Origin: Alphaproteobacteria bacterium
Lineage (GTDB): Bacteria; Pseudomonadota; Alphaproteobacteria; Rhodospirillales; Rhodospirillaceae
NCBI GenBank assembly: GCA_030835385.1
Contig: JAURPI010000037.1
Span: 1 to 55,787, forward strand
Length of the DNA stretch: 55,787 nucleotides
Direction: 5' to 3'
Below the pieces are notes generated by a model. It ran no database searches. It was not told the DNA's origin and saw nothing but the letters and a program-made list of their open reading frames with translations. The translations under genes were made by a program, and so were the position numbers. Within the stretch, counting starts at the first letter, position 1. Each line of letters starts with the position of its first letter. Below, piece by piece: positions 2 to 15,732 of the stretch.

Positions 2-1198
2 ACCGCCCTCACCCTCAATTCAAATGACCATGACGCTCACTTCGCAATCGCCAATGTGTATGCCGACAGGGGCCAATACGATAACGCCATCACGCACATC
101 AAAACGGCTATCAACATCAAGCCAGATTGGGCGCAGGCGTATATAAACCTGGGCAATTACCTCACGGGTATAGATTGTCACGATGAAGCATTGGTTTTTT
201 ATGATCGCGCGTTAGAGCTTGACGCGAACAATGTAAACGCGCGCGCAAATCGCGGCTTGACCCTGTTGACTTTGGGACGACTAGAAGAGGGTTGGAGTGA
301 CTACGCTGCCCGCGCCAAATCTGACGCTCCATTTTATGGCACCTTTGAAAACAACCTCCCGCAGTGGCAGGGCGAAGACCTCGCCAAAAAGAACGTCTTA
401 GTATTGGGTGAACAGGCGTTGGGAGAGGAAGTTCTGTTCGCCAGTTTTTTGCCAAATTTAGCGCCAACAGTGCAGAGCTGCACATTACTTTGCTCGACCA
501 AACTGAAAACCGTGTTCACTCGATCGTTTGCAGACGTCTCAAACTTGCATGTCACTGACAAGTTAGACGGTGGTGCAGACCTGATTGACTTAGACCTTCA
601 GCTCTCCCTTGTGGATTTAGGACGCGTGTTTCGCCCATCCATGTCCGCGTTTCCGGAGGCACATCCCTACCTGGTTTGGAACACTGACCTGCGCACTGCC
701 CTTAGGGCACACTTAGAAGACCAATATGGGGCAGACCAAAAATTTATCGGCATCTCATGGGCCAGCGCCAACCCTCTTATCGGCGGCATTAAGTCAATTC
801 CCCTCATAGAGTGGGCTCCTCTCCTATCCACCTCCGGGGTCACATTCGTGAATGTTCAATATGGTCAACCAGCTCAAGACATCGCCGCCTTGCCAGACAA
901 CCTCAGAAAAAAGATCGCATTGATCGATATGGTCGATCTAAATGGAGACCTTGACGAAACCTTATCGCTGCTAGCCGCTCTTGATCAGGTTATCACCTGT
1001 AGCAATACCACAGCCCATCTGGCAGGTGCCGTGGGGCTCTCGACGCGCGTCCTGGTGCCCAACGGGCGGGCCCGTATATGGTATTGGTTCAAAGAAGGGG
1101 CCAGCAGCCCATGGTACAAAGACACCCGTTTGGTGCGAAAAAGCGTGAATGACGGCTGGGATAAAGTTATGGGTCAAATAGCATCTGGTGACCAATAG
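2..1198 (+). CDS. TPR protein with GT9-like glycosyltransferase domain (5' end outside window)
   Basis: The reading frame is open to the window edge, so the true start lies upstream; a GTG at 56 is only an internal candidate. The first ~105 visible residues form tetratricopeptide repeats (for example AYINLGNYL and ALVFYDRALELD). The C-terminal ~250 residues resemble the GT-B fold domain of the GT9-like family that often follows TPRs, including FIGISWAS, the nucleotide-sugar-site-like CSNTTAHLAGAVG near the end, and SPWYKDTRLV. The protein is paralogous to the gene at 6354-8291, with the same order of motifs. It is probably a cytoplasmic glycosyltransferase or a catalytically altered relative; donor and acceptor are unknown. 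It lies just upstream of a secreted Ser/Thr-rich protein and the type II secretion operon, which suggests a functional link (inference). Confidence 0.85.
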   Translation, partial: TALTLNSNDHDAHFAIANVYADRGQYDNAITHIKTAINIKPDWAQAYINLGNYLTGIDCHDEALVFYDRALELDANNVNARANRGLTLLTLGRLEEGWSDYAARAKSDAPFYGTFENNLPQWQGEDLAKKNVLVLGEQALGEEVLFASFLPNLAPTVQSCTLLCSTKLKTVFTRSFADVSNLHVTDKLDGGADLIDLDLQLSLVDLGRVFRPSMSAFPEAHPYLVWNTDLRTALRAHLEDQYGADQKFIGISWASANPLIGGIKSIPLIEWAPLLSTSGVTFVNVQYGQPAQDIAALPDNLRKKIALIDMVDLNGDLDETLSLLAALDQVITCSNTTAHLAGAVGLSTRVLVPNGRARIWYWFKEGASSPWYKDTRLVRKSVNDGWDKVMGQIASGDQ

Positions 1199-1341
1199 CC
1201 CCGCATTTGTGGGTATAAAGCCCGGGTGCCAGAACCAGCGCCTCACATATGCCGCTCTTAGTACGGTTCTTCAATCATCTCCGCATGATCTGCCGAAGCG
1301 AGAAGTGTTGCAAAAACAGCACACTACAACAACCTTACCGC

Positions 1342-1371
1342 TTGACTTTGGCCCCGTGAAACGGTGATATG
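1342..1371 (+). promoter_or_regulatory. candidate sigma-70 promoter of the secreted protein gene
   Basis: TTGACT at 1342-1347 is followed after 17-18 bases by TGATAT/GATATG (1365-1371), a weak -10. It sits about 90 bases upstream of the start codon at 1458, in the only intergenic stretch preceding that gene. Visual match only; a transcription start has not been shown. Confidence 0.35.
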
Positions 1372-1390
1372 CAACTGCGCTGACGGGCGC

Positions 1391-1408
1391 ACGCGTATGC
1401 ATGCGCGT
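1391..1408. promoter_or_regulatory. 18-bp near-perfect palindrome in the leader of the secreted protein gene
   Basis: ACGCGTATGCATGCGCGT is self-complementary except for one T/G position pair. It lies between the candidate promoter and the start codon at 1458. It could be an operator for a dimeric regulator or, less likely given the lack of a loop, an RNA hairpin. No known binding-site family was recognised. Confidence 0.4.
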
Positions 1409-1457
1409 AACCTTGTTTTAAATCAGATATCTGGAAACTTAAGGGGATCCTTTAGTT

Positions 1458-2906
1458 ATGAAACGACAAACTCTTCAAATCGGTAGTGCGCTGTTGGCAA
1501 CAACTGCCCTATCGTCCACTGCGATTGCTGGTAGCGTCACTGCTGCAAGCGACACAGCCCAACAAGCGGCTTCAAGTCTTACACCTATATCCCTGTCCGC
1601 ACAGGTTTTTGGTGGTCTCACACCAGAAGCTATTTCACTTGGACCGGCTACATGGAACTTTGATCTGACCAATTCGTTGACCTCGAAGTTCACTCTTGAA
1701 CTTCGTAGTTCGAATTCAGATTTCGTGACAACAGGTGGTACTGTCGAAATTTACTCTGAGTCCGGCACAACACTTCAGGCTGCTACGACATTCACTGGAT
1801 GTACTGTACAAACCTTGACCGATCGTATCCTGGTTCAGGATTGCTTGGACATTAGCAGTAACTCCGGCGCTGGTATCGATGTACTGCAGATTTCAGGCAT
1901 TATCTTCGATGAAGCCAATGGTCTTGCCACAGTAGGCACATCAATCGCTCTTAGCGGTGCAGTGCTTGGTGACGGTTCTGCAGGAACCTTTGAAACGATA
2001 ACAAGCGCAAATGTGGTCACCTCAGTCAACTCCTTGTCTGGATCTCACCGGCAAGGTACCGCAGGTACTATTAGCAACACTTCTACCCCTGCTTTCTCGA
2101 CATTGGCTGCAGGTGCAGTAACTCTGAACCTCGGTTCAGTCGCGCTGTCCGCTGGCACCAGTGTACGGGGCACTGATTTAGCAACCGCAATTACTGGTAG
2201 CGTTACCAACATTGTGTCTGCGCTTGAACTAACTGTTGAGCATGGTGTGTTAACTGATGTTGCTACTTCGAACCTGGTATTGACACCTGGAGCAGGTGCA
2301 GTTAGTGCAACTCAGACGTTCGTACCGACTACAACAGCTGGCAACACGGCATCCTTTGATGTCGACGTCAGTGGGTCATCGCCGCTTGGATCCTACGATA
2401 TTGTCGTTAACTTCGACAATTCGGATGCCATCTCTGCATGGCCGGCCGGTACGTTAACAGTGGCCTACAGTGTTGGAGATGCGGTGAACCGCGCCGCCAT
2501 TGCCAACTCCACTGGTGGACTGGCTTCATTGACCCGGGGCGGAATGTCCGCGGCAATCAATACGGCTCAGTCCTCCACAGGCGCTGGAACAACGTTTAAC
2601 TCGTTGGTCCGGATCGTGAACAACGGCACCGTCGCTGGTACTGCAGTGATCGTCGTTACTAACGATGCAGACGGCTCCACACTGGGTACATACACAACAG
2701 CGACAATTGAACCGGGAGCAACCTTGCAGGTTGATATTCCGGAAATTGAAGCTGGTGCTAGTATCACACCAGACGGTGGCCAGTATGGATTGGCAGTCAG
2801 TGGCGCATTCACTGGTTACATCCAGCACCTGATGTTCAACACAGCAACTGAATCGCTGGTTGATCTTTCAGGCTTCCGTCTCGGAACTGGTACAAACACA
2901 CCGTAA
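1458..2906 (+). CDS. secreted Ser/Thr-rich protein of unknown function (possible surface layer or T2SS substrate)
   Basis: The 482-residue product has a clear Sec signal peptide: positively charged MKR, a hydrophobic core, and cleavage after about residue 24 (STAIA-G). The mature part is dominated by Thr, Ser, Ala, Gly and Val. It has only two Cys, about 13 residues apart near residue 120-135, and almost no Lys after residue 2, a composition usual for extracellular beta-rich proteins. I recognise no domain. AAGGGG at 1441-1446 serves as ribosome-binding site. The gene stands alone with a 259-base leader and a strong terminator, which suggests independent and perhaps high expression. It is flanked by a TPR glycosyltransferase gene and the gspF-D operon. 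A natural guess is that it is the exported cargo or a glycosylated surface protein, but nothing in the sequence proves this. Confidence 0.85.
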   Translation: MKRQTLQIGSALLATTALSSTAIAGSVTAASDTAQQAASSLTPISLSAQVFGGLTPEAISLGPATWNFDLTNSLTSKFTLELRSSNSDFVTTGGTVEIYSESGTTLQAATTFTGCTVQTLTDRILVQDCLDISSNSGAGIDVLQISGIIFDEANGLATVGTSIALSGAVLGDGSAGTFETITSANVVTSVNSLSGSHRQGTAGTISNTSTPAFSTLAAGAVTLNLGSVALSAGTSVRGTDLATAITGSVTNIVSALELTVEHGVLTDVATSNLVLTPGAGAVSATQTFVPTTTAGNTASFDVDVSGSSPLGSYDIVVNFDNSDAISAWPAGTLTVAYSVGDAVNRAAIANSTGGLASLTRGGMSAAINTAQSSTGAGTTFNSLVRIVNNGTVAGTAVIVVTNDADGSTLGTYTTATIEPGATLQVDIPEIEAGASITPDGGQYGLAVSGAFTGYIQHLMFNTATESLVDLSGFRLGTGTNTP

Positions 2907-2943
2907 GCTGGTTGAAAATTTCAGCTTCTTTCGAAGCTGTACG

Positions 2944-2975
2944 AAAGGGGAGGGTTTTTACCCTCCCCTTTTTTT
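2944..2975 (+). terminator. intrinsic terminator after the secreted protein gene
   Basis: A 10-bp perfect stem (AAGGGGAGGG at 2945-2954 with CCCTCCCCTT at 2961-2970) encloses a 6-base loop and runs into a T tract ending at 2975. It lies 38 bases after the stop codon and separates this gene from the gsp operon. Confidence 0.95.
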
Positions 2976-3138
2976 GCCTACGTTATGCTGCTCCCGACTA
3001 TTTATCTGTCCTTGTACAAGGTTAAGTCCGACTGGCAGAATGCAAACTCACGGCCCCGTTCTACATGACATTCGCTTAACTTCCGCTCTCAGCCCCAATT
3101 AGGTTAAAACACCGCTTAAGCCTGTTAGGAGACGAGAC

Positions 3139-4350
3139 ATGTCAGCGTTTGACTATGAGGCAATAGACCACGCGGGCAAGCCTCTCATCGGCCAGGTCAC
3201 GGCAGAGTCCGAGCGAGATGCTATTCGGTTGCTAGCAGCTAAGGGCCTCACGCCTGTTTCCATTGACTCACCCAAACAAGAGCGCACAACCAGCCAAATA
3301 TTTGATTTTCAACGGCCGCCCTCTGCTCAAGATTACATCCTTACGGTGAAACAACTGGCCATTCTGCTCAACGCCGGAGTTCCTCTTATCGCTGCGGTTG
3401 AAACATTGAAATCACAAGGTCTGCACCCTGCTCTCTCCAAAGCTTTCGACGGAATGTCGAGATCATTACGTTCCGGCGCTGCATTCTCATCCGCATTTGC
3501 AAACAATCTTCCTGCTCTTCCTCCGTATGCATTCCAACTCAGTGCAGCCGGTGAATCGATCGGCGAGCTTGGGCCAGCTTTAGCCGACACAGCCAAGCAA
3601 ATGGAATATGAGCACCGGGTACAGCAAGACATCAAAAATGCTCTTACCTACCCCGCTATTCTAGTCTCTACCGGATTAAGTGCCGTTCTGTTTATTTTTC
3701 TAGTCGTTGTCCCACGGTTTTCCGCGATGCTCGCATCGTCAAAAGAGCCGTTGCCCTTCATTTCAGAAGTCGTACTTTCAACCGGGATGTTTCTAAGCGG
3801 GAACAGCACACTTGTTTTTATCTTTCTGGCAATGACTGTAATCACCCTTATTTGGTTGTTTAAGCAACAATCAACTAAAGATGCTGCGCGGCAGGCCATA
3901 GCGTCCGCCCCCCTGATAGGGTCATGGTTAAGAGAGGCGGAATTGGCAAAATGGTCATCCATGCTTAGTACAATGTTGCGGCACGGTGTCGATCTGATTA
4001 AGGCGTTAGATTTTGCAAGAGGAACAGTCGGCATCAAGTCAATTCACACCCGTATGGAACAGGTCAGCAAATTAGTCCGAGGAGGAAAGTCGCTATCGAT
4101 CGCAATGAGAGAGCAAGAGACATTCTCAGACACCGCCCTAAGCTTAGTTCAGGTTGGTGAAGAATCCGGTGAACTGGCGAACATGCTGGGGTCTCTCGCT
4201 ACTCTTTACGAAGAGTCAGGGCGACAACGAATGAAGCGATTCCTTCTAATCCTTGAACCGGCAGCTATCATACTGATTGGAATCGTGATCGGTGGTATCG
4301 TAACAGCCATTATGCTAGCCATTACAAGCGTTAATCAGGTCTCCCTTTAG
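3139..4350 (+). CDS. gspF: type II secretion inner-membrane platform protein GspF
   Basis: GspF is the polytopic platform protein that couples the assembly ATPase GspE to pseudopilus growth. The 403 residues match the family length and show the usual order: N-terminal FDYEAID...GQVTAES segment, a first cytoplasmic T2SSF domain (about 60-185), transmembrane helices near 170-190 and 215-235, a second T2SSF domain, and a C-terminal helix near 370-395 (ILEPAAIILIGIVIGG). TAGGAGA a few bases upstream supports the ATG at 3139. It is the first gene of the operon; gspE, which usually precedes it, is absent from this window. Confidence 0.95.
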   Translation: MSAFDYEAIDHAGKPLIGQVTAESERDAIRLLAAKGLTPVSIDSPKQERTTSQIFDFQRPPSAQDYILTVKQLAILLNAGVPLIAAVETLKSQGLHPALSKAFDGMSRSLRSGAAFSSAFANNLPALPPYAFQLSAAGESIGELGPALADTAKQMEYEHRVQQDIKNALTYPAILVSTGLSAVLFIFLVVVPRFSAMLASSKEPLPFISEVVLSTGMFLSGNSTLVFIFLAMTVITLIWLFKQQSTKDAARQAIASAPLIGSWLREAELAKWSSMLSTMLRHGVDLIKALDFARGTVGIKSIHTRMEQVSKLVRGGKSLSIAMREQETFSDTALSLVQVGEESGELANMLGSLATLYEESGRQRMKRFLLILEPAAIILIGIVIGGIVTAIMLAITSVNQVSL

Positions 4351-4360
4351 GAAGTATGCT

Positions 4361-4822
4361 ATGCGCCTGAAAAAAAACAACGACAATAAAGACTCTCATC
4401 GCGAGAGTGGGTTTACTTTGCTGGAGATGCTTGTCGTACTCGTCATTATTGGACTTGTCGCTAGCCTGGTCGGTCCACAGCTACTTGGCCGAGTGGATAG
4501 TTCAAGAGTGACAGCTGCTGATACCCAAATCCGTATGCTAAAAGGCGCCCTTGATACGCTCAGGCTTGATGTTGGCCGCTATCCGACAGCTGAAGAAGGA
4601 CTCATGCTTCTCATGAACGCCCCTTCCGACGAGCAAACTCGAAGAAAATGGCAAGGCCCTTATCTAGCAGAAAGCGTTCCACTAGACCCATGGGGTAATG
4701 CCTACCAATACAAACCAAAAAACACGACCAGCGTCGTGCTTTTTAGTTTTGGCGCAGATGGCAAAGCCGACGGCGAAGGGATTAATGCAGATGTGGGTAT
4801 ATTGGACACCAACTCACAGTAA
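4361..4822 (+). CDS. gspG: major pseudopilin GspG
   Basis: GspG is the main subunit of the type II secretion pseudopilus. The 153-residue protein has the class III prepilin signature ESGFTLLEMLVVLVIIGL near residue 16-35: cleavage after Gly, Phe at +1, Glu at +5, then a hydrophobic helix. The conserved body follows (LDVGRYPTAEEGL..L, PLDPWGNAYQY, and a calcium-site-like FGADGKADGEG). It begins 10 bases after gspF. A prepilin peptidase (GspO) is needed for its processing but is not encoded in this window. Confidence 0.96.
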   Translation: MRLKKNNDNKDSHRESGFTLLEMLVVLVIIGLVASLVGPQLLGRVDSSRVTAADTQIRMLKGALDTLRLDVGRYPTAEEGLMLLMNAPSDEQTRRKWQGPYLAESVPLDPWGNAYQYKPKNTTSVVLFSFGADGKADGEGINADVGILDTNSQ

Positions 4823-5300
4823 ACTGACCGTTCAAACAGCCGGCTTCACTCTTCTCGAGGTGCTCGTGGTGGTCTTCATCATGGGTCTGACTGCTTCTGT
4901 CATTGCCCCAAATTTTCCTGGGCTTTTTGACCGCCTCAGATTCGCAAATCAAAAAGAAACGTTGTTCCGACAGATTAATACTTTGCCCTACTCGGCATAT
5001 GGTGCAAGCCAGGACTTAGTTCTTGGCGACGATCTGTCACTTTCTGCTGCAATATCTCATGATGATAGGAAATACAAACAGTCATTAGACTTAGCTGACC
5101 TTGATATTGAAACACCCTTTCGAGCTGCTAGCCTGAAACAGGCAGAATTGGATATACCCGACGGATGGGAGATACGCATTCCCCAACCGATTTTTTATCG
5201 CGCCTCTGGGTTCTGCACAGGCGGACAAATACAAATCTTTGTTGGCTCGATGGCATATGAATTTGGACTATCACCCCCGTATTGCCAGATCAACCAATGA
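4791..5300 (+). CDS. gspH: minor pseudopilin GspH
   Basis: The gene encodes a pseudopilin with the N-methylation motif AGFTLLEVLVVVFIMGLTAS about 16 residues from the chosen start, followed by a variable globular part. The start is ambiguous: ATG at 4791 (GAAGGG at 4775-4780 lies 10 bases upstream) is preferred over ATG at 4785 and CTG at 4824. All but the CTG overlap the end of gspG. By position between gspG and gspI it is assigned as GspH, which is thought to sit near the pseudopilus tip. It overlaps gspI by ATGA. Confidence 0.85.
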   Translation: MWVYWTPTHSKLTVQTAGFTLLEVLVVVFIMGLTASVIAPNFPGLFDRLRFANQKETLFRQINTLPYSAYGASQDLVLGDDLSLSAAISHDDRKYKQSLDLADLDIETPFRAASLKQAELDIPDGWEIRIPQPIFYRASGFCTGGQIQIFVGSMAYEFGLSPPYCQINQ

Positions 5301-5743
5301 CTACACGATCACATAGACAATCAGAACAGGGTTTCACCTTGATTGAAGCCATAGTCTCAATGGTCATAATCGGCACCGCGGCTCTTCCGATCATGCTTCT
5401 CATTAGTCAATCCCTGGACCAATTAACAAGAGTCGCTGAGGCAAATGCGCGTGCCGCTGCAATAGAGTCAGCACTCGCAATCATAGATCCCGTAAATCCA
5501 GCGTTGACACCATCCGGTGAAATCGACATGGGTGACGTATCATTTACGTGGGATAGCGAAGTTCTCGTACCACCCAATGAAACGGTCCAGCCAGGCACTG
5601 GGTTAGTAGGCTTCTTTGTAAGCTTCCACAGCGTAGAAGTAGAGTTCATCAAGGAAAGTTTGCCTTGGTTTTCCTTTTCTACACGGAAAGTGGGCTACAC
5701 CAAGATTCAAACGGGCAATCCGTTTGGAGCTATCAGCCAATGA
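5297..5743 (+). CDS. gspI: minor pseudopilin GspI
   Basis: A short prepilin of 148 residues. QGFTLIEAIVSMVIIGTAAL follows a 12-residue leader, matching the GspI/PulI pattern of Gly at -1 and Glu at +5. The helix continues into a small domain typical in length for GspI. Its ATG shares bases with the gspH stop (ATGA at 5297-5300), so translation is probably coupled. GspI nucleates the GspI-J-K tip complex in characterised systems. Confidence 0.88.
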   Translation: MTTRSHRQSEQGFTLIEAIVSMVIIGTAALPIMLLISQSLDQLTRVAEANARAAAIESALAIIDPVNPALTPSGEIDMGDVSFTWDSEVLVPPNETVQPGTGLVGFFVSFHSVEVEFIKESLPWFSFSTRKVGYTKIQTGNPFGAISQ

Positions 5744-6357
5744 GGATAGCTTGCAGCTCAAGCCAAAAGGGCTTCACTTTACTTGAAGTCATAGTAGTCC
5801 TGCTAATATCAAGCCTTATTGCTGCAATACTATTCCAGGGGCTGTCGCTGGTTCTAGATATACGCTATCGCGTAATCAATACACTAACTCGGATTGAGAC
5901 GATTGGTCTTCAGTCCAGCATTATGACCAGCCCACTTCGGAGTATGATCCCAGATCACACTGATGAGCCTGGCGTTTTTGCTGGCGATGCAAAACGACTC
6001 AAAGGCCTGACATTGAGTCCTTTGCATGGCACAAGCGGTGCCCCAACTGCCTTTGCGATGGAACTAGGTTACAATCTTACCGACGACGAAACCGTACTAA
6101 CTTACTATGAAATGGGCTACGATTCCGTCATTTTGGCCAGCTGGACTGGCAATATCGGGAACTTTTCTTATCGTGGCCGAACTGGCGATTGGGAAACTAG
6201 TTGGCCGCCAAGGAATGCAGATAAACCACTTCAAGTGCCACGTACAGTTCGCTTAGATACGGGTATGAATCAAAATCCAGTACAAATCACTCGGGTTATG
6301 GGTCCCCATAACCGAGCGATACGCACTCAAGACCTACCCTTTGGCACTAGCCAGTGA
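5740..6357 (+). CDS. gspJ: minor pseudopilin GspJ
   Basis: The 205-residue product starts MRIACSSSQKGFTLLEVIV, a canonical prepilin leader and N-terminal helix. A globular domain of the size expected for GspJ follows. The ATG at 5740 overlaps the gspI stop (ATGA), and its own stop overlaps the GTG start of the next gene at 6354 (GTGA). Part of the pseudopilus tip complex by family knowledge. Confidence 0.88.
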   Translation: MRIACSSSQKGFTLLEVIVVLLISSLIAAILFQGLSLVLDIRYRVINTLTRIETIGLQSSIMTSPLRSMIPDHTDEPGVFAGDAKRLKGLTLSPLHGTSGAPTAFAMELGYNLTDDETVLTYYEMGYDSVILASWTGNIGNFSYRGRTGDWETSWPPRNADKPLQVPRTVRLDTGMNQNPVQITRVMGPHNRAIRTQDLPFGTSQ

Positions 6358-8291
6358 CGGAGTCGAGACAATTTGACGAAGCGCTATTCCGGCAAGCACT
6401 TCAGCACTTTGACAGCGGTAATTACATCGATTTTGATCGCCTATGCAATTCCCTACTGAAGAACGATCCAAACCACCCCCTGCTAAACCATTTGCATGCC
6501 CTTTCCTGCCGTAGTCTGGGAAGACTCCAGGACGCTGAAGAATCTATTTTGCGCGCTTTAACTCGGTCGGTAGACCATCCGGCAATTCTAAATAGTTATG
6601 GCCTCATCCTACTGGATCTAGGTAAAGCTCAAAAAGCTATCAGCATCCTGACTAAAGCGTTGAAGATTGATCCAAGCTCGGCTGCTATAAACGCAAATAT
6701 GGGGCACGCGCAGCGTGCTTCAAACCTTCTTCCCGAATCTGAAGCCAGCTATCGAGAAGCTCTACGCCTTGATCCCACCTGTGCGGATGCACTGATCCAA
6801 CTCGCTCTACTTCTGAGGAATGAAAACCGTCTAGTGGAATTGGGGCACTCTTTATCACCACCAACCGGGAAATTTCATAACGACCCAGGTTTGGCGATGG
6901 TTCAGGGTCTTATTGCGCTTGACCAAGATATGCTAGCGGACTCGGAAGCTGCATTCCGGCACGCTCTAAAACGGCTACCTCAATCTGCGATACTATGGAA
7001 CAACTTGGGACTAGCATTATCAAAGCAGGGAAAACAAGAAGACGCACGAAAAGCTTATGAAACATCTATACATATTGATCCGAACCTTTTTGAGGCAAGG
7101 TTAAACGTTACTGACTTAATGAAATATGATTCTCCCGCAATCGCGCGAGAATATTTAATTGATGTGATTGAGACACAACCGAACAATGAGGCCGCCCATG
7201 ATTTATTGGGTTTCACCTGGTTTATGGATAAAGATTTCGACCGTGCGATTAACTATTTTACTCAAGCACTATCTATAAACAGTAGTTTCGAGCAAGCTGC
7301 CGCTCACAGAGCCGGCGCGCATTTTCTGAAAGGAGATTTATCATCTGCTTGGCCAGACTATAACCGTAAGTATGGAAAAAACGGGTTAAGCAGCAGCCCG
7401 GCCTCAGAAGATCGCCCCTTGTGGAATTTAAAGATACCTTCAGAGGACCCGGTACTAATTTGGACCAACGAAGGCCCTGGAGATGAGATTCTTCAGCTTG
7501 GTTTTATCTCAGACATACGTAGTCACCTACATAAACTTATTATTGCAACTAGTGACCGTATAGTACCAATTGCTTCGCGCTCATTCCCTGAGGCTATGTG
7601 CATTGATGTGGAGAGCCTTCGACAAGATAGTGTGGAAATTCCACAGCTCACAACCCAATGCCCAGCTATGCAGGTCGCTCCACTTTTGTGGAAGTCCACC
7701 CATGACTGTCCACAACGCAAACCATACCTAATCGCGAACGAAGGTGAGGCACTTGGCCTTCGCAAAAAATATCAAAAGCATAGTAAAGGGAACCTACTCG
7801 TTGGAATTTCCTGGCGAAGTACAAATGCTAAGTTCGGCTCTAGAAAGTCTCTAGATTTAGCTGATTTAATTCCTGTACTAGAAATCCCTGACGTTACTTT
7901 TATCAACCTACAGTATGGAGATACCAAAGCGGAAATCTCTGCGCTTCCTGCTGAGATTCGACAGAAGATAATTTGTGACGAAAAAATTGATTCTCTCGCC
8001 GACATAGATTTGTTTACAAGCCAAGTGCGTGCTTTAGACCTCGTGATTACCACCAGCAACACAACGGCTCATATTGCAGGTGCCCTAGGGTGTAAAACCT
8101 GGACACTTGTTCCCCGCGTCGGTCCAGGTTGGCTGTGGTACTGGTTCGACAATCGACTGGATAGCCCATGGTACTCTGAAATGCGCCTTTATAGACAGTG
8201 CCCAGATGACGGATGGGCAAAGCCACTCTCTGAAATACGAAAACACCTTTCAGTCTTTATTAAGGAATTCCAAAGCCTTACAGGGAATTAA
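6354..8291 (+). CDS. TPR-GT9-like glycosyltransferase embedded in the T2SS operon
   Basis: The 645-residue protein has about 350 residues of tetratricopeptide repeats (AEESILRAL, ILNSYGLILLDLGKAQKAI, WNNLGLALSKQGKQEDA). A C-terminal GT-B-like domain follows, with LLVGISWRS, VTFINLQYG, TTSNTTAHIAGALG and SPWYSEMRLYRQ. The C-terminal part aligns motif by motif with the protein encoded at 2-1198. It starts at a GTG overlapping the gspJ stop by 4 nt and is followed by gspK 134 bases later, so it belongs to the same transcript. TPR plus glycosyltransferase architecture recalls protein O-glycosyltransferases. Glycosylation of a pseudopilin or secreted cargo is inferred, not shown. No signal peptide is visible, so it should act in the cytoplasm. 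Confidence 0.88.
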   Translation: MTESRQFDEALFRQALQHFDSGNYIDFDRLCNSLLKNDPNHPLLNHLHALSCRSLGRLQDAEESILRALTRSVDHPAILNSYGLILLDLGKAQKAISILTKALKIDPSSAAINANMGHAQRASNLLPESEASYREALRLDPTCADALIQLALLLRNENRLVELGHSLSPPTGKFHNDPGLAMVQGLIALDQDMLADSEAAFRHALKRLPQSAILWNNLGLALSKQGKQEDARKAYETSIHIDPNLFEARLNVTDLMKYDSPAIAREYLIDVIETQPNNEAAHDLLGFTWFMDKDFDRAINYFTQALSINSSFEQAAAHRAGAHFLKGDLSSAWPDYNRKYGKNGLSSSPASEDRPLWNLKIPSEDPVLIWTNEGPGDEILQLGFISDIRSHLHKLIIATSDRIVPIASRSFPEAMCIDVESLRQDSVEIPQLTTQCPAMQVAPLLWKSTHDCPQRKPYLIANEGEALGLRKKYQKHSKGNLLVGISWRSTNAKFGSRKSLDLADLIPVLEIPDVTFINLQYGDTKAEISALPAEIRQKIICDEKIDSLADIDLFTSQVRALDLVITTSNTTAHIAGALGCKTWTLVPRVGPGWLWYWFDNRLDSPWYSEMRLYRQCPDDGWAKPLSEIRKHLSVFIKEFQSLTGN

Positions 8292-8425
8292 TTGGGGAAT
8301 TACAGAACAAGCATCTACTGTGTCTATTCAAGGTGCACTGTATACCTAGGCTGGGTCCTACGCTTATTCCTGTCTTGATGTTGCTCCTGATCGTGAAACG
8401 TTTCTTTGGCGACGGAACATAAATC

Positions 8426-9496
8426 ATGAGCATGGAACGAAATGCCGTACGAGGTTTTATATTACCTGTCACCCTCTGGGTGATAGCCGCGATTGGACTC
8501 GCTGCGGCTATCCTGTCGGAGTGGGTTGGTGGCGCTGTGACCAACGCAATCGCAATTCAGGAAAAGATTAATGCAGAAATTGCATTCTCTGACATACGTA
8601 GCGAAATCATTTTTGCGGTCGCAAGACGCCCTTATACGAGTCGTGGCCTACAAGTCGGGAATTTTCTTTCTCAACCCACTGGATCAACCTTTCAGGATGT
8701 TCTGAATTCTAATTATGAATCCGATAAACTGATTTTCTTTGATGGTCGCCCTTATGTAATGGCCAGCAATCCAAAATATGCCGTACAAATACAGGATGGT
8801 AGAGGCCTCGTTAATCTCAACATTGTTAGCGCTGAGAACACGAAAAAGTTTCTGGGCGCGCTTGGTATCAATGAAGAAAGCCAGTCGCATCTAGCTGATA
8901 CTCTACAGGACTATCGGGACGCCGACGATTTGACCCGCTTATCGGGGGCCGAAGAAAATGACTATAGGCGCCTAGGACTACATCTGCCTGCTAATGGTCA
9001 GCTAATGTCTCCGTGGGAAGCACAACGCATTATTGGCTGGAGCAGTAGCGTTAACCTCTGGAATTCTCAATTCGAACGACCATTAATGTCAACTTGTCGT
9101 GCTTCGGGATTCAACCCTAACACAGCGCCGCGTGAGGTGTTGTCCTCTTATTTAGACGGCGTATCTATGGAACGGGCAAACATGCTGGTGACACATCGTG
9201 AAAATTTACCCTTTAGAAACGCCAGAAATGTTGGCGATGCGGCTGGGGTAATTTTGTTGAATCAACCCTTCTTCTTTAGCTTCACACCGGGTCGATGCAT
9301 TATTGTCGACCTTATCGACCGTGAAACAAATGAACGTATTCGATTTTCTCTCACCCTACTCCCGTTGCAACGGGACCAACCTTGGCAAATAGACTATGTC
9401 CTTAGAATTCCTAAAGCATACAGGAAAGCACTGGATCAACTCGATCCAGAAATCACTTTCCCCAGTCCCGAAGAGATTGCTGGAGCAACAGGATAA
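8426..9496 (+). CDS. gspK: minor pseudopilin GspK
   Basis: GspK caps the pseudopilus tip. The 356-residue length is typical (GspK is the large pseudopilin). The N-terminus reads RGFILPVTLWVIAAIGLAAA, a prepilin helix in which the +5 Glu is absent, as is usual for GspK. A central helix-rich domain (LADTLQDYRDADDLTRLSGAEE) and a helix-hairpin-helix-like segment (FNPNTAPREVLSSYLDG) match the family. The 134-base gap from the preceding gene is the largest inside the operon. A second ATG at 8432 is also possible as start. Confidence 0.9.
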   Translation: MSMERNAVRGFILPVTLWVIAAIGLAAAILSEWVGGAVTNAIAIQEKINAEIAFSDIRSEIIFAVARRPYTSRGLQVGNFLSQPTGSTFQDVLNSNYESDKLIFFDGRPYVMASNPKYAVQIQDGRGLVNLNIVSAENTKKFLGALGINEESQSHLADTLQDYRDADDLTRLSGAEENDYRRLGLHLPANGQLMSPWEAQRIIGWSSSVNLWNSQFERPLMSTCRASGFNPNTAPREVLSSYLDGVSMERANMLVTHRENLPFRNARNVGDAAGVILLNQPFFFSFTPGRCIIVDLIDRETNERIRFSLTLLPLQRDQPWQIDYVLRIPKAYRKALDQLDPEITFPSPEEIAGATG

Positions 9497-9497
9497 T

Positions 9498-10499
9498 TTG
9501 AGAGTATTGCCGGGGTCTGATCGACGAATCATATGGGTGCCGGCACGAAACACTCTTAAGCATGCTGTATTTAGTCTCCCAGAACAACTCACTGGGAAGA
9601 AGAGGCTATCTGCACTTGAACTCAAAATCAGCGCCTGGTCTCCATTTAGTGACACGAGATTCTCCGCAACTTGGTCTGGAAATATCGCGAGTGTCTTTGC
9701 CTGGGATGGCGAAGCATTAGACCGACGTATTAAAGAGAACGGGTATAACCCGGCTGACTGTGAGGTCGTTCCCGAGGCCTACATAAGGCGTCCCGGCGAC
9801 AATGGTATTCGACTGGTATCATGTAATGACGGAATTGAAGCTCAGGTATGGACGAATGGGTTTCTTAGCACTTCTCGTTGGTGGGCGGAGGTTCCTGCGA
9901 AACACGAATGGTCACTGTTTGCGAGAACGATAAGCGCATCTGTGAATTCGGCACCTCCATCCGTGATTGATCCTGAGTGGCTTGAAAGTCCATGGCACAT
10001 AAGTCAAACCGGTGGGACACTGATTACTCAAATTATCAGGAATGAGGATCTTTTAGCTGCGAGTATAGCACTACTCATCGCACCGTGCGTATATTTCGCT
10101 GCGGAATGGGCAAGTTACTCAGTGATGAGAAGCGGGGTAACACGCGAAATCACCTTAGTTGCTGAAGAAAGCAGAGCAATTAGAGGTCAAAGAGCGCAAG
10201 CATTATCTGCTCTCGAAACGACTGAAGATCTGTTTGCTTTACGACGTTATCCACATCAGATTCAAATCATGTCAAAGACTCATGCGTTACTCCGTGGACA
10301 TTCTGTGACGCTGTCTAGCTGGGATTATAATGACGGCGTGCTCGAATTCGGACTAGATTCTGAGCAAGATATCGACACGAGAGTTTTCATCACAGCATTT
10401 GAGAATGACCCCCTATTCTCGTCAGTGAGCGCTGGAACCAGAGGGTCACGTATCGTCATGCGAATGAGCATATCTTCTTACGCAGCCGCTTCATCATGA
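9498..10499 (+). CDS. gspL: T2SS assembly platform protein GspL
   Basis: GspL links the cytoplasmic ATPase to the periplasmic GspM/GspC. The frame is open from 9396, but the region before 9498 overlaps gspK. A TTG at 9498, one base after the gspK stop, gives an N-terminus (LRVLPGSDRRIIWVPA) like other GspL proteins. A cytoplasmic actin-like domain of ~190 residues is followed by a membrane segment (LLAASIALLIAPCVYFAAEW) and a ferredoxin-like periplasmic domain. The start codon is the uncertain point. The end overlaps gspM by ATGA. Confidence 0.8.
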   Translation: MRVLPGSDRRIIWVPARNTLKHAVFSLPEQLTGKKRLSALELKISAWSPFSDTRFSATWSGNIASVFAWDGEALDRRIKENGYNPADCEVVPEAYIRRPGDNGIRLVSCNDGIEAQVWTNGFLSTSRWWAEVPAKHEWSLFARTISASVNSAPPSVIDPEWLESPWHISQTGGTLITQIIRNEDLLAASIALLIAPCVYFAAEWASYSVMRSGVTREITLVAEESRAIRGQRAQALSALETTEDLFALRRYPHQIQIMSKTHALLRGHSVTLSSWDYNDGVLEFGLDSEQDIDTRVFITAFENDPLFSSVSAGTRGSRIVMRMSISSYAAASS

Positions 10500-11134
10500 T
10501 TTCTAGCCTTACCTTACACGGCACTGTCAGAAATTTCTTACGCCAATTACAAGTTCGGTTTGAGCAAGAATTTGCTGCTAATGATCGATTGAAGTGGCTT
10601 GCGAGTATAAGCATCACCTTACTATATACAGCTTTTGTTCTGTATATAGCGGGTCAAGCTGGAGAAGCTCGCAATGAGTTAAACCTAGCGCGAGAGCAAC
10701 TTTCGCAGATTAGGGCACAGGCCCTCGAAACTCGATGGCCAGACCGGGCAACGCAAGCCCAAGCACTTATCTCTGACTTGGAAAAAAGATTCTGGTCCGG
10801 CAGTACTCCTGGCTTAGCGGAGGCAGGATTTGAACGCTGGATTAGGCAGACTTTTGACCAACATGGTGTTCAAGTCAGACAAGTGCAACTCACGCGCGGT
10901 CCTATTCTAGAGAACGGACTGGGCGCCCAAAAACCAACGTTGTCTTCGGTACAGCAGATTAGAGCTAAAGTTATCAGTCCACTTGATGAAATTGCACTCG
11001 TTAGATTTCTCAATGACGCGGCTAGCCATAAATCTTGGTTAGTAGTTGAACAATTGATAGTTAGACCTGGTCGCAACCCGCGACTAGAAATGGACTTAGC
11101 AACATTCTTTAGAACGCCTCAGCCAAACCCATGA
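10496..11134 (+). CDS. gspM: T2SS protein GspM
   Basis: The 212-residue protein has a short cytoplasmic N-terminus, one membrane segment (LASISITLLYTAFVLYIAG, about residues 35-54), a coiled-coil stretch (ARNELNLAREQLSQIRAQ) and a small periplasmic domain, as expected of GspM, the partner of GspL. Identification rests on this topology and on its position directly after gspL with a 4-nt overlap, since GspM sequences diverge strongly. It overlaps the next gene by ATGA at 11131. Confidence 0.75.
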   Translation: MISSLTLHGTVRNFLRQLQVRFEQEFAANDRLKWLASISITLLYTAFVLYIAGQAGEARNELNLAREQLSQIRAQALETRWPDRATQAQALISDLEKRFWSGSTPGLAEAGFERWIRQTFDQHGVQVRQVQLTRGPILENGLGAQKPTLSSVQQIRAKVISPLDEIALVRFLNDAASHKSWLVVEQLIVRPGRNPRLEMDLATFFRTPQPNP

Positions 11135-11628
11135 AAGTCACCCTAAATCCCTTCCTAAGTCAGCTACACGGTCTTGGCGCCCGTCATTCACGCCTAGCAG
11201 GGGGCCTTTTATTGTGCGCCCTCCTAGGTGTATCGGTATCTATGTTGAGTTCCAATTCAGTTCAAAAGCTAAAAAATCGTGATGCAAACTGGTCTCTACC
11301 AACTAACATCACTCTCACTTTAGATTCAGACGTCGATGCAATGCTTGCAGAACCGCTATTTGGTAGCCCACCGGTGATCAAAGTGATTCCCAAAGTAGTG
11401 TTGGGGGAGGATGCTTTTTCAGAGTGGCGCTTACTCGGGATTATCGCTGAAGGGGCTTTGCGGCAGATAGTCTTCAAGAATGTAGAGACTGGAGAAATCC
11501 AGCATGCACGTACGGGAGACACTCTCCCAAGTGGTGAAACGTTGATGGAAATTCACGACAATTCCATTGCACTCCAAAAAGATAATGAGAGCAGAACTAT
11601 TGCTCTGTTTGAAGATATTGAAAGATAA
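11131..11628 (+). CDS. gspC: GspC-like inner-membrane protein with HR domain, no PDZ
   Basis: The 165-residue product has an N-terminal membrane helix (LAGGLLLCALLGVSVSML, residues ~23-40). A linker and a homology-region-like domain follow: FSEWRLLGIIAEGALRQIVFK and GDTLPSGETLMEIHDNSIAL. This beta-rich domain of GspC/PulC docks on the N0 domain of the secretin. The C-terminal PDZ or coiled coil of classical GspC is missing, so this is a short form. It lies immediately before gspD, which fits that partnership. GspN/GspP-type proteins are an alternative label. Confidence 0.7.
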   Translation: MKVTLNPFLSQLHGLGARHSRLAGGLLLCALLGVSVSMLSSNSVQKLKNRDANWSLPTNITLTLDSDVDAMLAEPLFGSPPVIKVIPKVVLGEDAFSEWRLLGIIAEGALRQIVFKNVETGEIQHARTGDTLPSGETLMEIHDNSIALQKDNESRTIALFEDIER

Positions 11629-11640
11629 GAGGGATACATC

Positions 11641-13710
11641 ATGAGTCTCTTCGACAATGAGCGATTACTCCAGCTCGCAGCTCAACTATGCGTAGTATTT
11701 GCTGTCAGTATAATTCTATCAAGCTGCACGACACTGCCACGCACCCCGATTACGACACCGATGCAGATTAGCAAAACCAGCAATGTAGATGGGGATTTAA
11801 TCATCGAAGGGGCAGCAACCGGGAGGAGTTCATTGACCTCTGAGCCGGGCTTGCGAACGCCAAGTGGTCGAGAAAGCGCCGCCCCGATAACCAGTTCCCA
11901 GCCCCCATCACTTGAAGGAGAAGACATCAGTATCAATTTTGAAGGTGTGTCATTACCTGCCTTTGTCAATACTGTGTTCGGCGAATTACTGGAGGTAACC
12001 TTTGAGATTGACAGCGCTGTTCTCGATCGAGAACAGCTTGTTACACTACGCACCGCTGAGCCAACGAGTCCGGACGGTTTTTATCAATTAATCACACAAG
12101 TGTTATCGAATTACGGTATCAGCGTAGCGTATGAAAACGGTGTGTATAGGGTTGTCGAGAATTCACAAGCGCAAAAAGAAGTCCCTCGGATCATACGTTC
12201 TAGGGCATTTACCAGTGTCCCGGGGGATATGCGCCCCGTTTTCTATTATGCAACAGTTGACAATGTTCGCATCCAAACTATGCAGGTATGGCTTGACCTT
12301 ACGATGCGCAAAAGAGTCCAGATTATCACCATTCCTTATTCAAATGCCCTTCTACTCCTAGGCAATGCCGAAGACGTTTCAGCTGCTACGGAGGTAATTG
12401 ATATACTGGACCAACCTAATCTTGCCGGTAGTAGGAGTTTAAAGATTTCCCCCGCGTTCTGGAGCGCTGACAAACTCACACGGCAATTGATGGAAGTCCT
12501 AAAAGCGGAAGGGTACTCGGTTGAACTAGGACCCGATACGAATGCGCCAATAAAGATGATTCCTGTGCAGGCGCTAAATACGATTATTGTATTTTCTTCT
12601 AGTGAACAGAACTTACAACACGTACTGGATTGGGCTTCGGAACTCGATCAACCTGGGCAGACTATTAACACGACAGGCGTTTACTACCACCAAGTGAAAA
12701 ATACAAATGCGGAAGAAATAGCCACCATAATAACCGAGCTTCTCTCCACAGACGCACCGGACAACAACGCGACAGGCCAACAAGTCGAAAGTAATGTTAC
12801 TAAATCAGTCACCGTCGACAAGCCGAGAAATGCACTGATTTTTCAAGGGTCGGCAGAAGAGTACGCGCAATTTCGGTCCTTGGTTGAGCAAATGGACCGG
12901 GCGCCATTTGAGGTGCTCATAGAAGCCACAGTCGCTGAAGTTACTCTGGATCAAGGAGAATCGCTAGGGGTAGTCCTGAAATTCGATAACGCTGCAACCA
13001 CTGTTCCAAATAGCACTTCGATTCAATCGGACAGCGGACTTCAAGTTAACTTGATACGTGATACTGGTGATTTTACAGCTGCCCTTAATGCCGCAGCTGA
13101 TCAAAGCCGCGTCTCCATCTTATCCAGCCCAAGGCTAATTGCGGCAAGTGGAAAAACTGCATCAATGCAAGTAGGCACACAGGTCCCCATCATAACCACC
13201 CAACAAACAGCACCTGATGGGTCAACCGGTGGCACCAGCAATATTCTTCAACAAGTTCAGTACAGAGACACGGGTGTTGTCCTAGATATTTCTCCTATCG
13301 TGAATTCAAGTCAGCGCGTAGAACTCACTGTCTCTCAAGAAGTTAGCGAAGCCCAAGGCAACGACACATCTGATATTCAAAGCCCTATCATCCTAACACG
13401 GAGCTTTACGACGACGTTATCAATAGATGACGGGGAAACGGTGCTTCTTGCTGGCCTTATTTCGGAAAATTTCAGCACTGGAGATAATGGAGTTCCGTAC
13501 CTAAAAGATGTTCCCATTCTAGGGAACCTGTTTAAAAGCAGCTCTCAATCCGTACAAAAAACAGAGCTAATTGTTCTGCTCACACCTTACATCATTGATA
13601 GTCGCAATGCTTCAAGATCAGTTAGAGACGCCTTCCGCTCACAACTCGGAGGGCTTGCGGAATCCTTCGTTGAGACAAATGCACCCGCGCCATATCAACC
13701 CAGCCAATAA
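11641..13710 (+). CDS. gspD: type II secretion secretin GspD with its own lipobox
   Basis: GspD forms the outer-membrane channel. The 689 residues contain an N0 domain (ISINFEGVSLPAFVN, about residue 100), N1-N2-like domains, and the secretin core (VSILSSPRLIAASGKTASM, GVVLDISPIV, DDGETVLLAGLI, VPYLKDVPILGNLF, ELIVLLTPYII). The N-terminal segment ends in IILSSC with Cys-29 followed by Thr, a lipobox with no inner-membrane retention residue. The secretin may therefore be a lipoprotein that reaches the outer membrane without a separate pilotin, as described for the liposecretin HxcQ. The start at 11641 follows GAGGG about 8 bases upstream. Confidence 0.95.
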   Translation: MSLFDNERLLQLAAQLCVVFAVSIILSSCTTLPRTPITTPMQISKTSNVDGDLIIEGAATGRSSLTSEPGLRTPSGRESAAPITSSQPPSLEGEDISINFEGVSLPAFVNTVFGELLEVTFEIDSAVLDREQLVTLRTAEPTSPDGFYQLITQVLSNYGISVAYENGVYRVVENSQAQKEVPRIIRSRAFTSVPGDMRPVFYYATVDNVRIQTMQVWLDLTMRKRVQIITIPYSNALLLLGNAEDVSAATEVIDILDQPNLAGSRSLKISPAFWSADKLTRQLMEVLKAEGYSVELGPDTNAPIKMIPVQALNTIIVFSSSEQNLQHVLDWASELDQPGQTINTTGVYYHQVKNTNAEEIATIITELLSTDAPDNNATGQQVESNVTKSVTVDKPRNALIFQGSAEEYAQFRSLVEQMDRAPFEVLIEATVAEVTLDQGESLGVVLKFDNAATTVPNSTSIQSDSGLQVNLIRDTGDFTAALNAAADQSRVSILSSPRLIAASGKTASMQVGTQVPIITTQQTAPDGSTGGTSNILQQVQYRDTGVVLDISPIVNSSQRVELTVSQEVSEAQGNDTSDIQSPIILTRSFTTTLSIDDGETVLLAGLISENFSTGDNGVPYLKDVPILGNLFKSSSQSVQKTELIVLLTPYIIDSRNASRSVRDAFRSQLGGLAESFVETNAPAPYQPSQ

Positions 13711-13732
13711 AGATTTCTGGAGACTACACCCT

Positions 13733-14494
13733 ATGACTCTTAAGAACATGTTCTCAGCAATGGCAATTGCGATGTTTATCTCCGCTTGCTCCACACCGAG
13801 AACATCAGATGAAGCACTAATGAAGTGGTACCCAAACCAAAAATACCATCAATCATTGGAAACGAGCGCGCTCGAACAAGAAGCGCTTGAAGGGTCAATC
13901 GAAGCAGAGCTACAATTTGGCATAAGACTCATGAATGGTGATCGGGTTGATCAAGACATAGAAAAGGGGGCCAAGATCTTTAAGAGGCTGGCCATGTTGG
14001 GTGATGCGCGAGCTCAGTTCATGCTCGGAACGGCATATGATCAAGGCGCCGGTGTCGAGCGCAATCCAGACCAAGCACTCGGTTTGTTCAGGGACTCCGC
14101 AGAACAAGGGTACGACCTTGGTCAGTATTGGTACGCGTTTATGTTATCCCGCGGTCGAGGAATACCTGAACCAGATTGGAAGGCCGCCCTACCCTGGTTC
14201 CAGAAGGCAGCCGACCAAGGCCACCCTCTAGCCCAATTTTCACTGGGTGAAATACATGAGTCTTGCCGGGCTGGTTTGGATCGTAACTTTGACTTGGCTG
14301 CATATTGGTATCGCCGTTCATTTAGTGAGAATCCCAGCGCCGCCGCCCAATATAATATATTGCGGCTCATAGATTTGGGACTGGTCGCTTGGCAAGACGG
14401 TGATCCCGGTGAACCACAATCAAGGATTAAGATGTTAGATATGTCTAAATTCGAACCTTGCGATCCTGACGCCTATGACCCGCTCTTAAACTAG
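13733..14494 (+). CDS. Sel1-repeat lipoprotein at the end of the T2SS operon
   Basis: The ATG at 13733 (CTGGAG upstream) gives a 253-residue protein with a lipoprotein signal (AMFISAC, Cys-19). Sel1-like repeats follow (AQFMLGTAYDQGAGV, ALGLFRDSAEQGYDLGQYWYAFML, WFQKAADQGHPLAQFSLGEIH). Sel1 repeats are alpha/alpha scaffolds for protein contacts. It begins 22 bases after gspD, so it is probably co-transcribed. A pilotin-like or accessory role at the secretin is possible but unproven. Confidence 0.85.
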   Translation: MTLKNMFSAMAIAMFISACSTPRTSDEALMKWYPNQKYHQSLETSALEQEALEGSIEAELQFGIRLMNGDRVDQDIEKGAKIFKRLAMLGDARAQFMLGTAYDQGAGVERNPDQALGLFRDSAEQGYDLGQYWYAFMLSRGRGIPEPDWKAALPWFQKAADQGHPLAQFSLGEIHESCRAGLDRNFDLAAYWYRRSFSENPSAAAQYNILRLIDLGLVAWQDGDPGEPQSRIKMLDMSKFEPCDPDAYDPLLN

Positions 14495-14531
14495 ACACGT
14501 TAACCAACTTTCTCCAATTTATTTCACCGCC

Positions 14532-14771
14532 ATGCAAATGACAAATAATATAGAGTTGTCAATTACAATCGCGATTATGATTGTAGAAATTGGCCTTTTT
14601 GCTCTTTGTTATTATAGAGCTAAACAGCCGCCAGATCCGCTCAGTCCACGGATAATAAACTATGGTCTTGTTATGATTCTTTTGGCTCTGATTTTCTTCG
14701 CGACTTTAGCTCACGCTATCAGCTTGGTGACAGGAACGCAGGTCAAGCCCAGAAGAAGAAGAGGTTTATAA
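14532..14771 (+). CDS. small two-helix membrane protein
   Basis: A 79-residue product with two predicted membrane segments (IELSITIAIMIVEIGLFALC and YGLVMILLALIFFATLAHAI) separated by a Pro-rich loop, and a basic tail KPRRRRGL that should be cytoplasmic. I recognise no family. It lies 37 bases after the Sel1 lipoprotein on the same strand and may be the last gene of the operon. The ribosome-binding site is weak; a second ATG at 14538 is possible. Confidence 0.5.
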   Translation: MQMTNNIELSITIAIMIVEIGLFALCYYRAKQPPDPLSPRIINYGLVMILLALIFFATLAHAISLVTGTQVKPRRRRGL

Positions 14772-14872: not shown

Positions 14873-15529
14873 TCAACTTTCAGCGTACAAGGTCTTCAAA
14901 CGTTGATACTCAGGATTATTGCCGTCCAACGCGACTGATTTGGAAATCAGGTCGTGAGCAGCCTGAGTATCTCCAGACTCTGCCTTGATCAACGCAAGGC
15001 CGTAAAACGCGTGCGGAATATTATCCCGTTCGCTAATGACCTCTTCCAGATATTCCGTTGCCATATCTAGTTGAGAAGAAAAAATTGCGGTTAGACCCGC
15101 ACCGACTTTGTAATTCACGTTCTTTGAATCGAGTGCTATTGCGCGTTGGTAAGCGCGAAGGGCTTCAGGAAAGTTATGTATTTGCTGAAATGTATCACCG
15201 ATAGCGCCATAAATATCAGCCCTGGCCGGATCGACCCGTCCGGCCTCCAACATAGCTTTGATGCCGTCCTCAACCTTACCAGTCGCAACGTAGCCCTGGC
15301 CAAGCGCGAAATGATACTCAGCGACTGTGTCATCAATCTGGATCGCGGCTTCGAGGTAATTGATCCCATCATCAAACTTACCTCTCTGACATGCCAAAAC
15401 TCCTAACAACTTTAGGGCCTCAGCGTTCTGAGAATCATCCGTAACGATATCAAGATAGGCTTGTTCGGCTGCGTCCAAATCACCGGACTGATGTAAACTG
15501 AGAGCTTGTTCGATTGCGGTTTCTGCCAT
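14873..15529 (-). CDS. TPR repeat protein
   Basis: The 218-residue protein consists almost wholly of tetratricopeptide repeats (ALSLHQSGDLDAAEQAYLDIV, ALKLLGVLACQRGKFDDGINYLEAAI, YGAIGDTFQQIHNFPEALRAYQRAIAL, AFYGLALIKAESGDTQAAHDLI). ATG at 15529 is preferred over an upstream TTG at 15562. It is divergent from the TPR/glycosyltransferase gene at 15733 and both proteins begin MAET, which suggests common descent of the N-terminal repeats or shared regulation. Function unknown, likely protein-protein contacts. Confidence 0.82.
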   Translation of the reverse strand: MAETAIEQALSLHQSGDLDAAEQAYLDIVTDDSQNAEALKLLGVLACQRGKFDDGINYLEAAIQIDDTVAEYHFALGQGYVATGKVEDGIKAMLEAGRVDPARADIYGAIGDTFQQIHNFPEALRAYQRAIALDSKNVNYKVGAGLTAIFSSQLDMATEYLEEVISERDNIPHAFYGLALIKAESGDTQAAHDLISKSVALDGNNPEYQRLKTLYAES

Positions 15530-15732
15530 GCGGGTACTCTGAATTAGGACCTGCGCGCCCAAATTCAGGGCTCGCTTGGGGCCGGACGATCGATGAATTC
15601 TGTGTTCTAGCCAACCATAGCCTCCAGTTCAAACAGAAAACGGCTTTTGGGTTGCCCTGCGGGCCGCTAAGTTGGTTCCGATAATCAGGTCAACCTGCGC
15701 AAGTAGCACCTTATTGAGGGGCATGGTGAAAG

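Follow-up and report, generated by a model that had tools for sequence, protein, structure and literature searches.

A type II secretion gene cluster with interleaved genes for predicted TPR-type glycosyltransferases and a Ser/Thr-rich, exported-looking protein whose C-terminal module recurs in other proteins

The window analysed here is the whole 55,787-nucleotide stretch G000:C26:1-55787 of an alphaproteobacterial genome of 3.28 Mb in 47 contigs. At its start, genes of a type II secretion system (T2SS) are combined with genes for tetratricopeptide repeat (TPR) proteins bearing a glycosyltransferase (GT)-B-like domain, which we term TPR-GTs, and with a gene for a Ser/Thr-rich, exported-looking protein, which we term EXP. 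On the plus strand from position 2, the order is TPR-GT a (cut at its 5′ end), EXP, gspF-G-H-I-J, TPR-GT b, gspK-L-M-C-D and a Sel1-repeat gene, followed by a minus-strand TPR protein and then a second TPR protein (Table 1; the open reading frames (ORFs) of all mapped loci are greedy calls and not a curated proteome). This confirms, for positions 2-14,494, the arrangement described in the original prediction, in which a TPR-GT and EXP precede gspF-J, a further TPR-GT and gspK-L-M-C-D. The operon had also been called near-complete: the gsp genes from gspF to gspD are present, but gspE (G000:C2:16903-18630) and the prepilin peptidase gene (G000:C2:13414-13920, 3 kb before gspE) lie outside the window on another contig, C2.

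We class the cluster as a T2SS because of its parts. GspG is above its NCBIfam cut-off, while GspF, GspK and GspD are clear by Pfam but fall under the NCBIfam equivalog cut-offs; for GspD, PF00263 and PF21305 (N0) are above cut-off and TIGR02517 gives 295.5 bits against a required 351.35. The calls of GspH, GspI and GspJ rest on a pilin-like N-terminus and gene order, and those of GspL and GspC, which have no family match, on position and size. The content of the Gsp/Xcp/Eps systems is thus found here, with gspF-D in the window and gspE and the prepilin peptidase on another contig. The cluster differs from them in its interleaved and flanking TPR-GT genes (6-9 in unbroken clusters), in the presence of EXP and in the location of gspE at the far end of a TPR-GT array.

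On C2, gspE is followed by TPR-GT genes of 674, 536, 1039, 537 and at least 542 amino acids (aa), up to the contig end. Within the array, at L065:7069-7755 (G000:C2:27069-27755), a protein of 228 aa weakly resembles GT8 (E 1e-3, under cut-off); unlabelled ORFs of ~224-290 aa occupy a similar place in the arrays of many relatives. In several relatives, for example G068, G070, G071 and G066, a single contig carries gspE, then the array, EXP and gspF-D, and because of this unbroken order C2 and C26 are probably adjacent in this genome. Counting the two contigs as joined, the cluster has seven TPR-GT genes with eight GT domains; the 1039-aa protein (G000:C2:22262-25381) carries two GT modules in one chain, and a 1445-aa TPR-GT of a relative (G061:C2, L083) carries three. 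The 12 genomes in which one contig spans gspE and gspF have 6-9 TPR-GT genes within the mapped region, and a few of these genes are short pieces. A TPR-GT is located 3′ of gspE in 13 of 14 cases, and in the fourteenth gspE is split into two ORFs, after which a TPR-GT follows. Near gspE we also observed two adjacent proteins of ~340 aa (L064:14245-16292, G000:C2), one of them matching GDSL lipases, and gspE has neighbours of similar size in several relatives; these two proteins could be acylation or deacylation enzymes of a glycan.

This gene order is conserved among relatives in this group of uncultured bacteria. An orthologous gspF (>300 bits) was found in 36 of the 73 family genomes surveyed; in all 36, its immediate 5′ neighbour, encoded on the same strand, is EXP, three of the EXP copies being contig-edge pieces (202 aa in G007, 124 aa in G043 and 121 aa in G048). 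A same-strand TPR-GT is found 5′ of EXP in 32 of the 34 visible cases, and in the two exceptions the gene at this place is on the opposite strand, a TPR-GT in G065 and gspK in G064. The co-occurrence of these neighbours in related genomes, proposed as a check in the original prediction, is therefore borne out. Downstream of gspJ, 18 of the 31 visible cases have a TPR-GT, and in nine gspK follows directly, so that the TPR-GT within the gsp operon is variable, whereas the one beside EXP is nearly constant. For these counts, neighbours were labelled by phmmer with the window proteins, and unlabelled ORFs <135 aa were dropped.

Table 1. Features of the window. HMM, hidden Markov model; CTD, module defined in the text.
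Feature	Position	Strand	Basis or remark
TPR-GT a	2-1198	+	TPR repeats and GT-B-like domain; contig edge cuts 5′ end
EXP	1458-2906	+	Ser/Thr-rich, Lys-poor, exported-looking; CTD at residues ~361-482
Intrinsic-terminator-like hairpin and T-run 3′ of EXP	2943-2976	+	
gspF	3139-4350	+	PF00482 4.5e-48; TIGR02120 8.4e-81, under its cut-off
gspG, major pseudopilin	4361-4822	+	TIGR01710 157.5 bits, cut-off 88.85
gspH	4698-5300	+	N-methyl motif; TIGR01708 33.1 bits, under cut-off; start uncertain, overlaps gspG
gspI	5282-5743	+	N-methyl motif, gene order
gspJ	5665-6357	+	N-methyl motif, gene order
TPR-GT b	6354-8291	+	~9 TPR repeats (modelled helix pairs) and GT-B-like domain; within gsp operon
gspK	8426-9496	+	PF21687 and PF03934 above cut-off
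gspL	9396-10499	+	Position only; no Pfam match
gspM	10496-11134	+	PF10741 E 5e-4, just under cut-off
gspC-like	11131-11628	+	Position; no family match
gspD, secretin	11641-13710	+	PF00263 4.4e-45, PF21305; TIGR02517 7.4e-88, under its cut-off
Sel1-repeat protein	13571-14494	+	PF08238; 3′ of gspD in many relatives
TPR protein	14873-15562	-	Adjoins cluster in mapped genus members and G018
TPR protein, possible nucleotide-sugar transferase C-terminus	15733-17418	+	PF03407 at just E 0.17; no GT domain by local HMM
PMT_2-type protein	29755-31272	-	Protein mannosyltransferase-like
PMT_2-type protein	35967-37628	+	Protein mannosyltransferase-like

The one TPR-GT that we modelled, TPR-GT b, has TPR repeats by Pfam and a predicted layout of a TPR part and a GT-B-like part, with a mean pLDDT (the confidence score of the model) of 86.9. 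In a Foldseek search of the PDB, the best seven matches are SPINDLY chains (1.7e-16) and the eighth is human OGT (4e-14), with alignments of ~670-850 columns that span both the TPR and the GT parts. While these are the closest PDB folds, they differ from TPR-GT b in their low TM-scores (0.2-0.45), 13-16% identity and large root-mean-square deviation (rmsd), and the Pfam GT41 family gave no match to seven GT domains at E<=10; the low TM-scores may be expectable for a flexible superhelix. The GT domain of TPR-GT a scores 238.7 bits with a local HMM built from relatives of TPR-GT b. The description of these proteins as GT9-like did not hold: the cut-off of PF01075 is reached by none, the window GT domains having no match and three of five paralogues matching under cut-off at E 0.02-0.19. 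Collectively, the predicted fold suggests that the TPR-GTs may be able to glycosylate proteins. A precedent is FlmG of Caulobacter, which its description (PMC7591256) presents as a flagellin O-glycosyltransferase with TPR and GT-B parts that transfers pseudaminic acid and whose TPR part binds the acceptor, that is, a cytoplasmic protein that glycosylates an exported one. Compared on this description, TPR-GTs resemble FlmG in the N-terminal TPR and C-terminal GT-B layout; FlmG modifies flagellin, whereas the present genes form an array beside a T2SS, and some of them encode fusions of two or three modules.

The composition of EXP would suit an acceptor of such enzymes. Its 482 residues comprise 27.4% Ser+Thr and just two Lys (positions 2 and 77), a Ser+Thr share above that of all 611 ORFs >200 aa in the mapped loci that do not encode the CTD module described below (maximum 20.9%). 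Over 34 copies >400 aa, including that of the window and excluding two G043 paralogues outside the cluster, the median is 27.2% (range 21.3-30.2), with a median of 1.3% Lys. By eye, the N-terminus is conserved and signal-peptide-like (consensus ALLATTALS) and no C-terminal membrane helix is seen. Identity among relatives drops to 31%. Searches of Pfam and NCBIfam gave nothing significant (best E 0.18 and 0.045, respectively), including the families there for the type IX secretion system (T9SS) CTD, PEP-CTERM and GlyGly-CTERM, and no EXP was found among 72,556 plasmid records. Two additional EXP-like proteins are located outside the cluster in G043 (contigs C10 and C3; L162 and L164).

EXP is followed by a hairpin and T-run with a free energy of -23.8 kcal/mol (z -4.84), as good as which none of 200 shuffles was. 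A hairpin and T-run is found 3′ of EXP in 31 of 33 copies (the copies 400-560 aa long that are followed by 80 or more bases; no shuffle control), and the stem sequences differ. In a simple scan of positions 1150-3200, sigma-70-like promoters numbered zero, against a mean of 1.5 in shuffles, and there were five further terminator-like sites, against a mean of 1.7. EXP had been predicted to be monocistronic, and this view rests therefore on two features that support it, the terminator and a gap of 232 bases before gspF, with no sigma-70-like promoter from the scan to add. A strong terminator would suit an abundant product.

We found, by profile matching, that the last ~120 residues of EXP, which we call CTD, recur in other proteins, a relation newly found here. 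In its own genome there are six matches in four proteins: besides EXP, these are two S8 proteases and one protein that matches a C-type lectin. Within the family, CTD is present in 40 of the 73 genomes and 8 of 23 genera, with up to 44 matches per genome. It is found in all 36 genomes with orthologous gspF compared to 4 of the 37 without (G006, G044, G050 and G052; Fisher p 1.2e-16, which ignores shared ancestry). Set against GspG, 37 genomes have both, one has GspG only, three have CTD only and 32 have neither. The GspG-positive genome without CTD (G020) has just a distant gspF (25% identity), and genomes with distant GspF-like proteins only (e.g. G001, G002, G030 and G038) are likewise without CTD. 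Two of the four genomes with CTD and no orthologous gspF, G050 and G052, are assemblies of ~500 and 240 contigs, and the GspG and GspF matches of G052 belong to a different system. Furthermore, with at most 13 and 10 first-look candidates scored per genome, respectively, CTD was found in 27 of 297 genomes of an order sample, all within the family, and in 1 of 385 genomes of a class sample, which is the genome of the window; neither sample contained it outside the family. An S8 protease with its CTDs used as query matched in 40 genomes, identical to the CTD set, and at E<=1e-20 the same protease without CTD was found in none of the other family genomes (of 73).

To describe the proteins that bear CTD, we used 41 from regions hand-picked among the better-scoring rows, so that the family counts are not those of a random sample. 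CTD is present in two copies in 25 and in four copies in 16, and the last copy lies at most 25 residues from the end in 33. Among the families listed (the best 25 of 29), S8 proteases account for 18 proteins, reprolysin-like for seven, trypsin for two, InlB-type repeats for nine, virginiamycin-B-lyase-like propellers for two, FG-GAP for two, and lectin and peroxidase families for one each; on the S8, reprolysin-like and trypsin matches, up to 27 of the 41 are protease-like. Judged from their families and, by eye, from their N-termini, CTD proteins are probably secreted. Copies in the N-terminal part occur in L124, L126 and L152. EXP carries a single copy: no clear second one was found in 36 EXP-like proteins (best extra E 0.0055 and 0.014, in single proteins). 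The N-terminal parts of EXP were considered as CTD-like and show no resemblance (hhalign E 0.16-0.22).

The fold of CTD probably resembles that of the ASRT/ASRAH domains, on borderline evidence. The model of EXP is poor overall (pLDDT 57.3) except for most of CTD, with block means mostly at 80-88. Of its 50 listed PDB matches, seven are ASRT chains at ranks 28-50 (prob 1.00, TMt 0.64-0.78, rmsd 2.7-4.7, 97-108 columns, E 4e-3 to 7e-3), ranked below low-TM Ig-like and other beta proteins. Foldseek output names no part, and we take the aligned part to be CTD because the 97-108 columns fit its length and because CTD is the confidently modelled part. A profile comparison of CTD and ASRT on smaller alignments was not significant (E 0.42). 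A larger one, of 154 CTD copies against four ASRT loci (L178, L179, L180 and L183 of seven, the other three misfitting the cut-out motif), gave an hhalign score of 20.7 (E 0.0077, probability 5%, 88 columns), which none of 100 column shuffles reached (highest 19.8; reversed 12.2); as the hypothesis was prompted by the Foldseek list, the profile comparison is a follow-up and not independent. In the aligned columns, an invariant Asn and a Gln-His pair of CTD have ASRT counterparts. A sequence search of CTD against solved structures gave nothing significant; it brought up three chains of lectin or carbohydrate-binding type, at E 0.41-0.67. ASRAH domains are, in their description (PMC2739507), predicted sugar binders whose secreted members are dyads or tetrads. 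The predicted beta-sandwich, the aligned Asn and Gln-His and the copy numbers of two or four per protein fit this description, and because of those copy numbers CTD fits the dyad/tetrad rule, to which the single-copy EXP does not conform. CTD differs in lacking the ASRT His/Cys ligand residues and a PF07100 match (EXP has none at E<=1).

T2SSs normally export folded proteins from the periplasm, and the way in which they tell cargo from other proteins has long been an open question. We propose that the window contains half of a conserved cluster that would couple a T2SS to cytoplasmic TPR-type protein O-glycosyltransferases. Under this hypothesis, acceptor proteins that await export would be bound by the TPR domains, and the GT-B domains would put sugars on their Ser/Thr. 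EXP would be both resident acceptor and cargo, glycosylated and then passed through Sec and the T2SS to become an abundant surface protein, and by analogy with FlmG the cluster enzymes might also modify CTD proteins before export. CTD would mark proteins of the same route, possibly as a feature recognised by the T2SS or the surface, and would probably hold them at the cell surface through CTD-CTD assembly with EXP, through glycan binding or through both. For this T2SS-coupled glycosylation, export and display of EXP and CTD proteins as a whole, we put the chances at even. If true, T2SS cargo would join flagellins as a substrate of TPR-type O-glycosylation in the cytoplasm, and several such enzymes would act in one cluster. 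One homologous module on many enzymes, co-occurring with a particular T2SS, is moreover a testable handle on cargo recognition.

A more specific version, in which secretion and display depend on the glycan, is doubtful: OGT/FlmG-like enzymes would sugar-coat EXP as a scaffold in the cytoplasm, the T2SS would export EXP and the CTD enzymes, and ASRAH-like CTD pairs and fours would dock proteases on the sugar-coated layer. Were it true, it would be a further system of folded-tag export and anchoring beside the T9SS-CTD and sortase-like ones. Going by their descriptions, GlyGly-CTERM/rhombosortase (PMC3237569), PEP-CTERM (PMC1569441) and the T9SS CTD are likewise mostly C-terminal homology regions common to many secreted enzymes of a genome and linked to a system for export or sorting. 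Here, by contrast, the module is ~120 aa long, does not by eye end in a membrane helix in EXP, can be internal or N-terminal and is tied to a T2SS and TPR-GT cluster. Among the listed titles and starts of abstracts of the open-licence PubMed Central literature, we found no description of a T2SS with TPR-GTs or of this CTD.

Several observations weigh against the coupling of glycosylation to this T2SS. TPR-GT-like matches (E<=1e-10, to which TPR repeats contribute) occur in 65 of the 73 family genomes, also in those without this T2SS, and the genome of the window has further ones on C39, C30, C25 and C5. Both window GT domains are without a Pfam match at E<=10, a search in which HMMER filters lose most weak matches, and OGT structures searched by sequence matched just the TPR part, the best stretches lying between 34 and 313. 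No sugar-donor pathway was seen among the few neighbours scanned, in which no search was aimed at one. The EXP model is poor outside CTD, and in 8 of the 41 CTD proteins the last copy lies farther from the end, internally or N-terminally. Genome G044 (76% complete), without gspF and GspG matches, retains three CTD matches, and G006 (98% complete, 5% contamination), in which gspF and GspG are not seen and EXP has no strong match (best E 6e-8), retains a CTD-bearing S8 protease, so that CTD would be either not strictly tied to the T2SS or, in G006, a decaying remnant. Finally, the co-occurrence may go back to a single ancestral gain or a few, and may largely reflect one clade.

A rival reading is that of an ordinary T2SS which acquired its neighbours by accident in this lineage, with TPR-GTs that modify flagellin, lipopolysaccharide or other surface proteins and a block co-inherited in one clade. 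The spread of TPR-GT-like proteins beyond this T2SS suits such an accident, as does the confinement of CTD to eight genera that could be one clade. Yet EXP has remained next to gspF in every genome with the orthologue despite its sequence divergence and despite the inversion, in some genomes, of parts of the cluster. Furthermore, G006, without gspF, GspG and EXP, has few TPR-GT matches (3 compared to 5-15 in its genus) and few CTD matches (3 compared to 17-22 in four other genus members). We regard accidental neighbourhood as unlikely.

Less likely again is that EXP, exported via the T2SS, assembles by itself into a surface layer or fibre, with CTD only an assembly or adhesion module and glycosylation incidental. 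The strong, conserved terminator behind a single gene would suit such a protein, and so would the beta-rich EXP model, for which Foldseek gives pilins and Ig-like adhesins (best PrgB 8beg, 3.6e-8); these matches, however, have TM-scores near 0.2, and the 6-9 TPR-GTs of unbroken clusters are left unexplained. That the TPR-GTs glycosylate pseudopilins or other T2SS parts and not cargo is improbable, in that the position of a TPR-GT between gspJ and gspK, which suggests it, is given up where gspK directly follows gspJ, while nearly every visible EXP adjoins a TPR-GT and has a Ser/Thr content far above any ORF of the comparison set.

Beyond the cluster that we propose to couple glycosylation and secretion, the second TPR protein after the Sel1 gene is not of the TPR-GT a/b type. 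The contig also encodes two PMT_2-type proteins, the first of which adjoins an LptF/LptG gene; both are possibly other glycan transferases.

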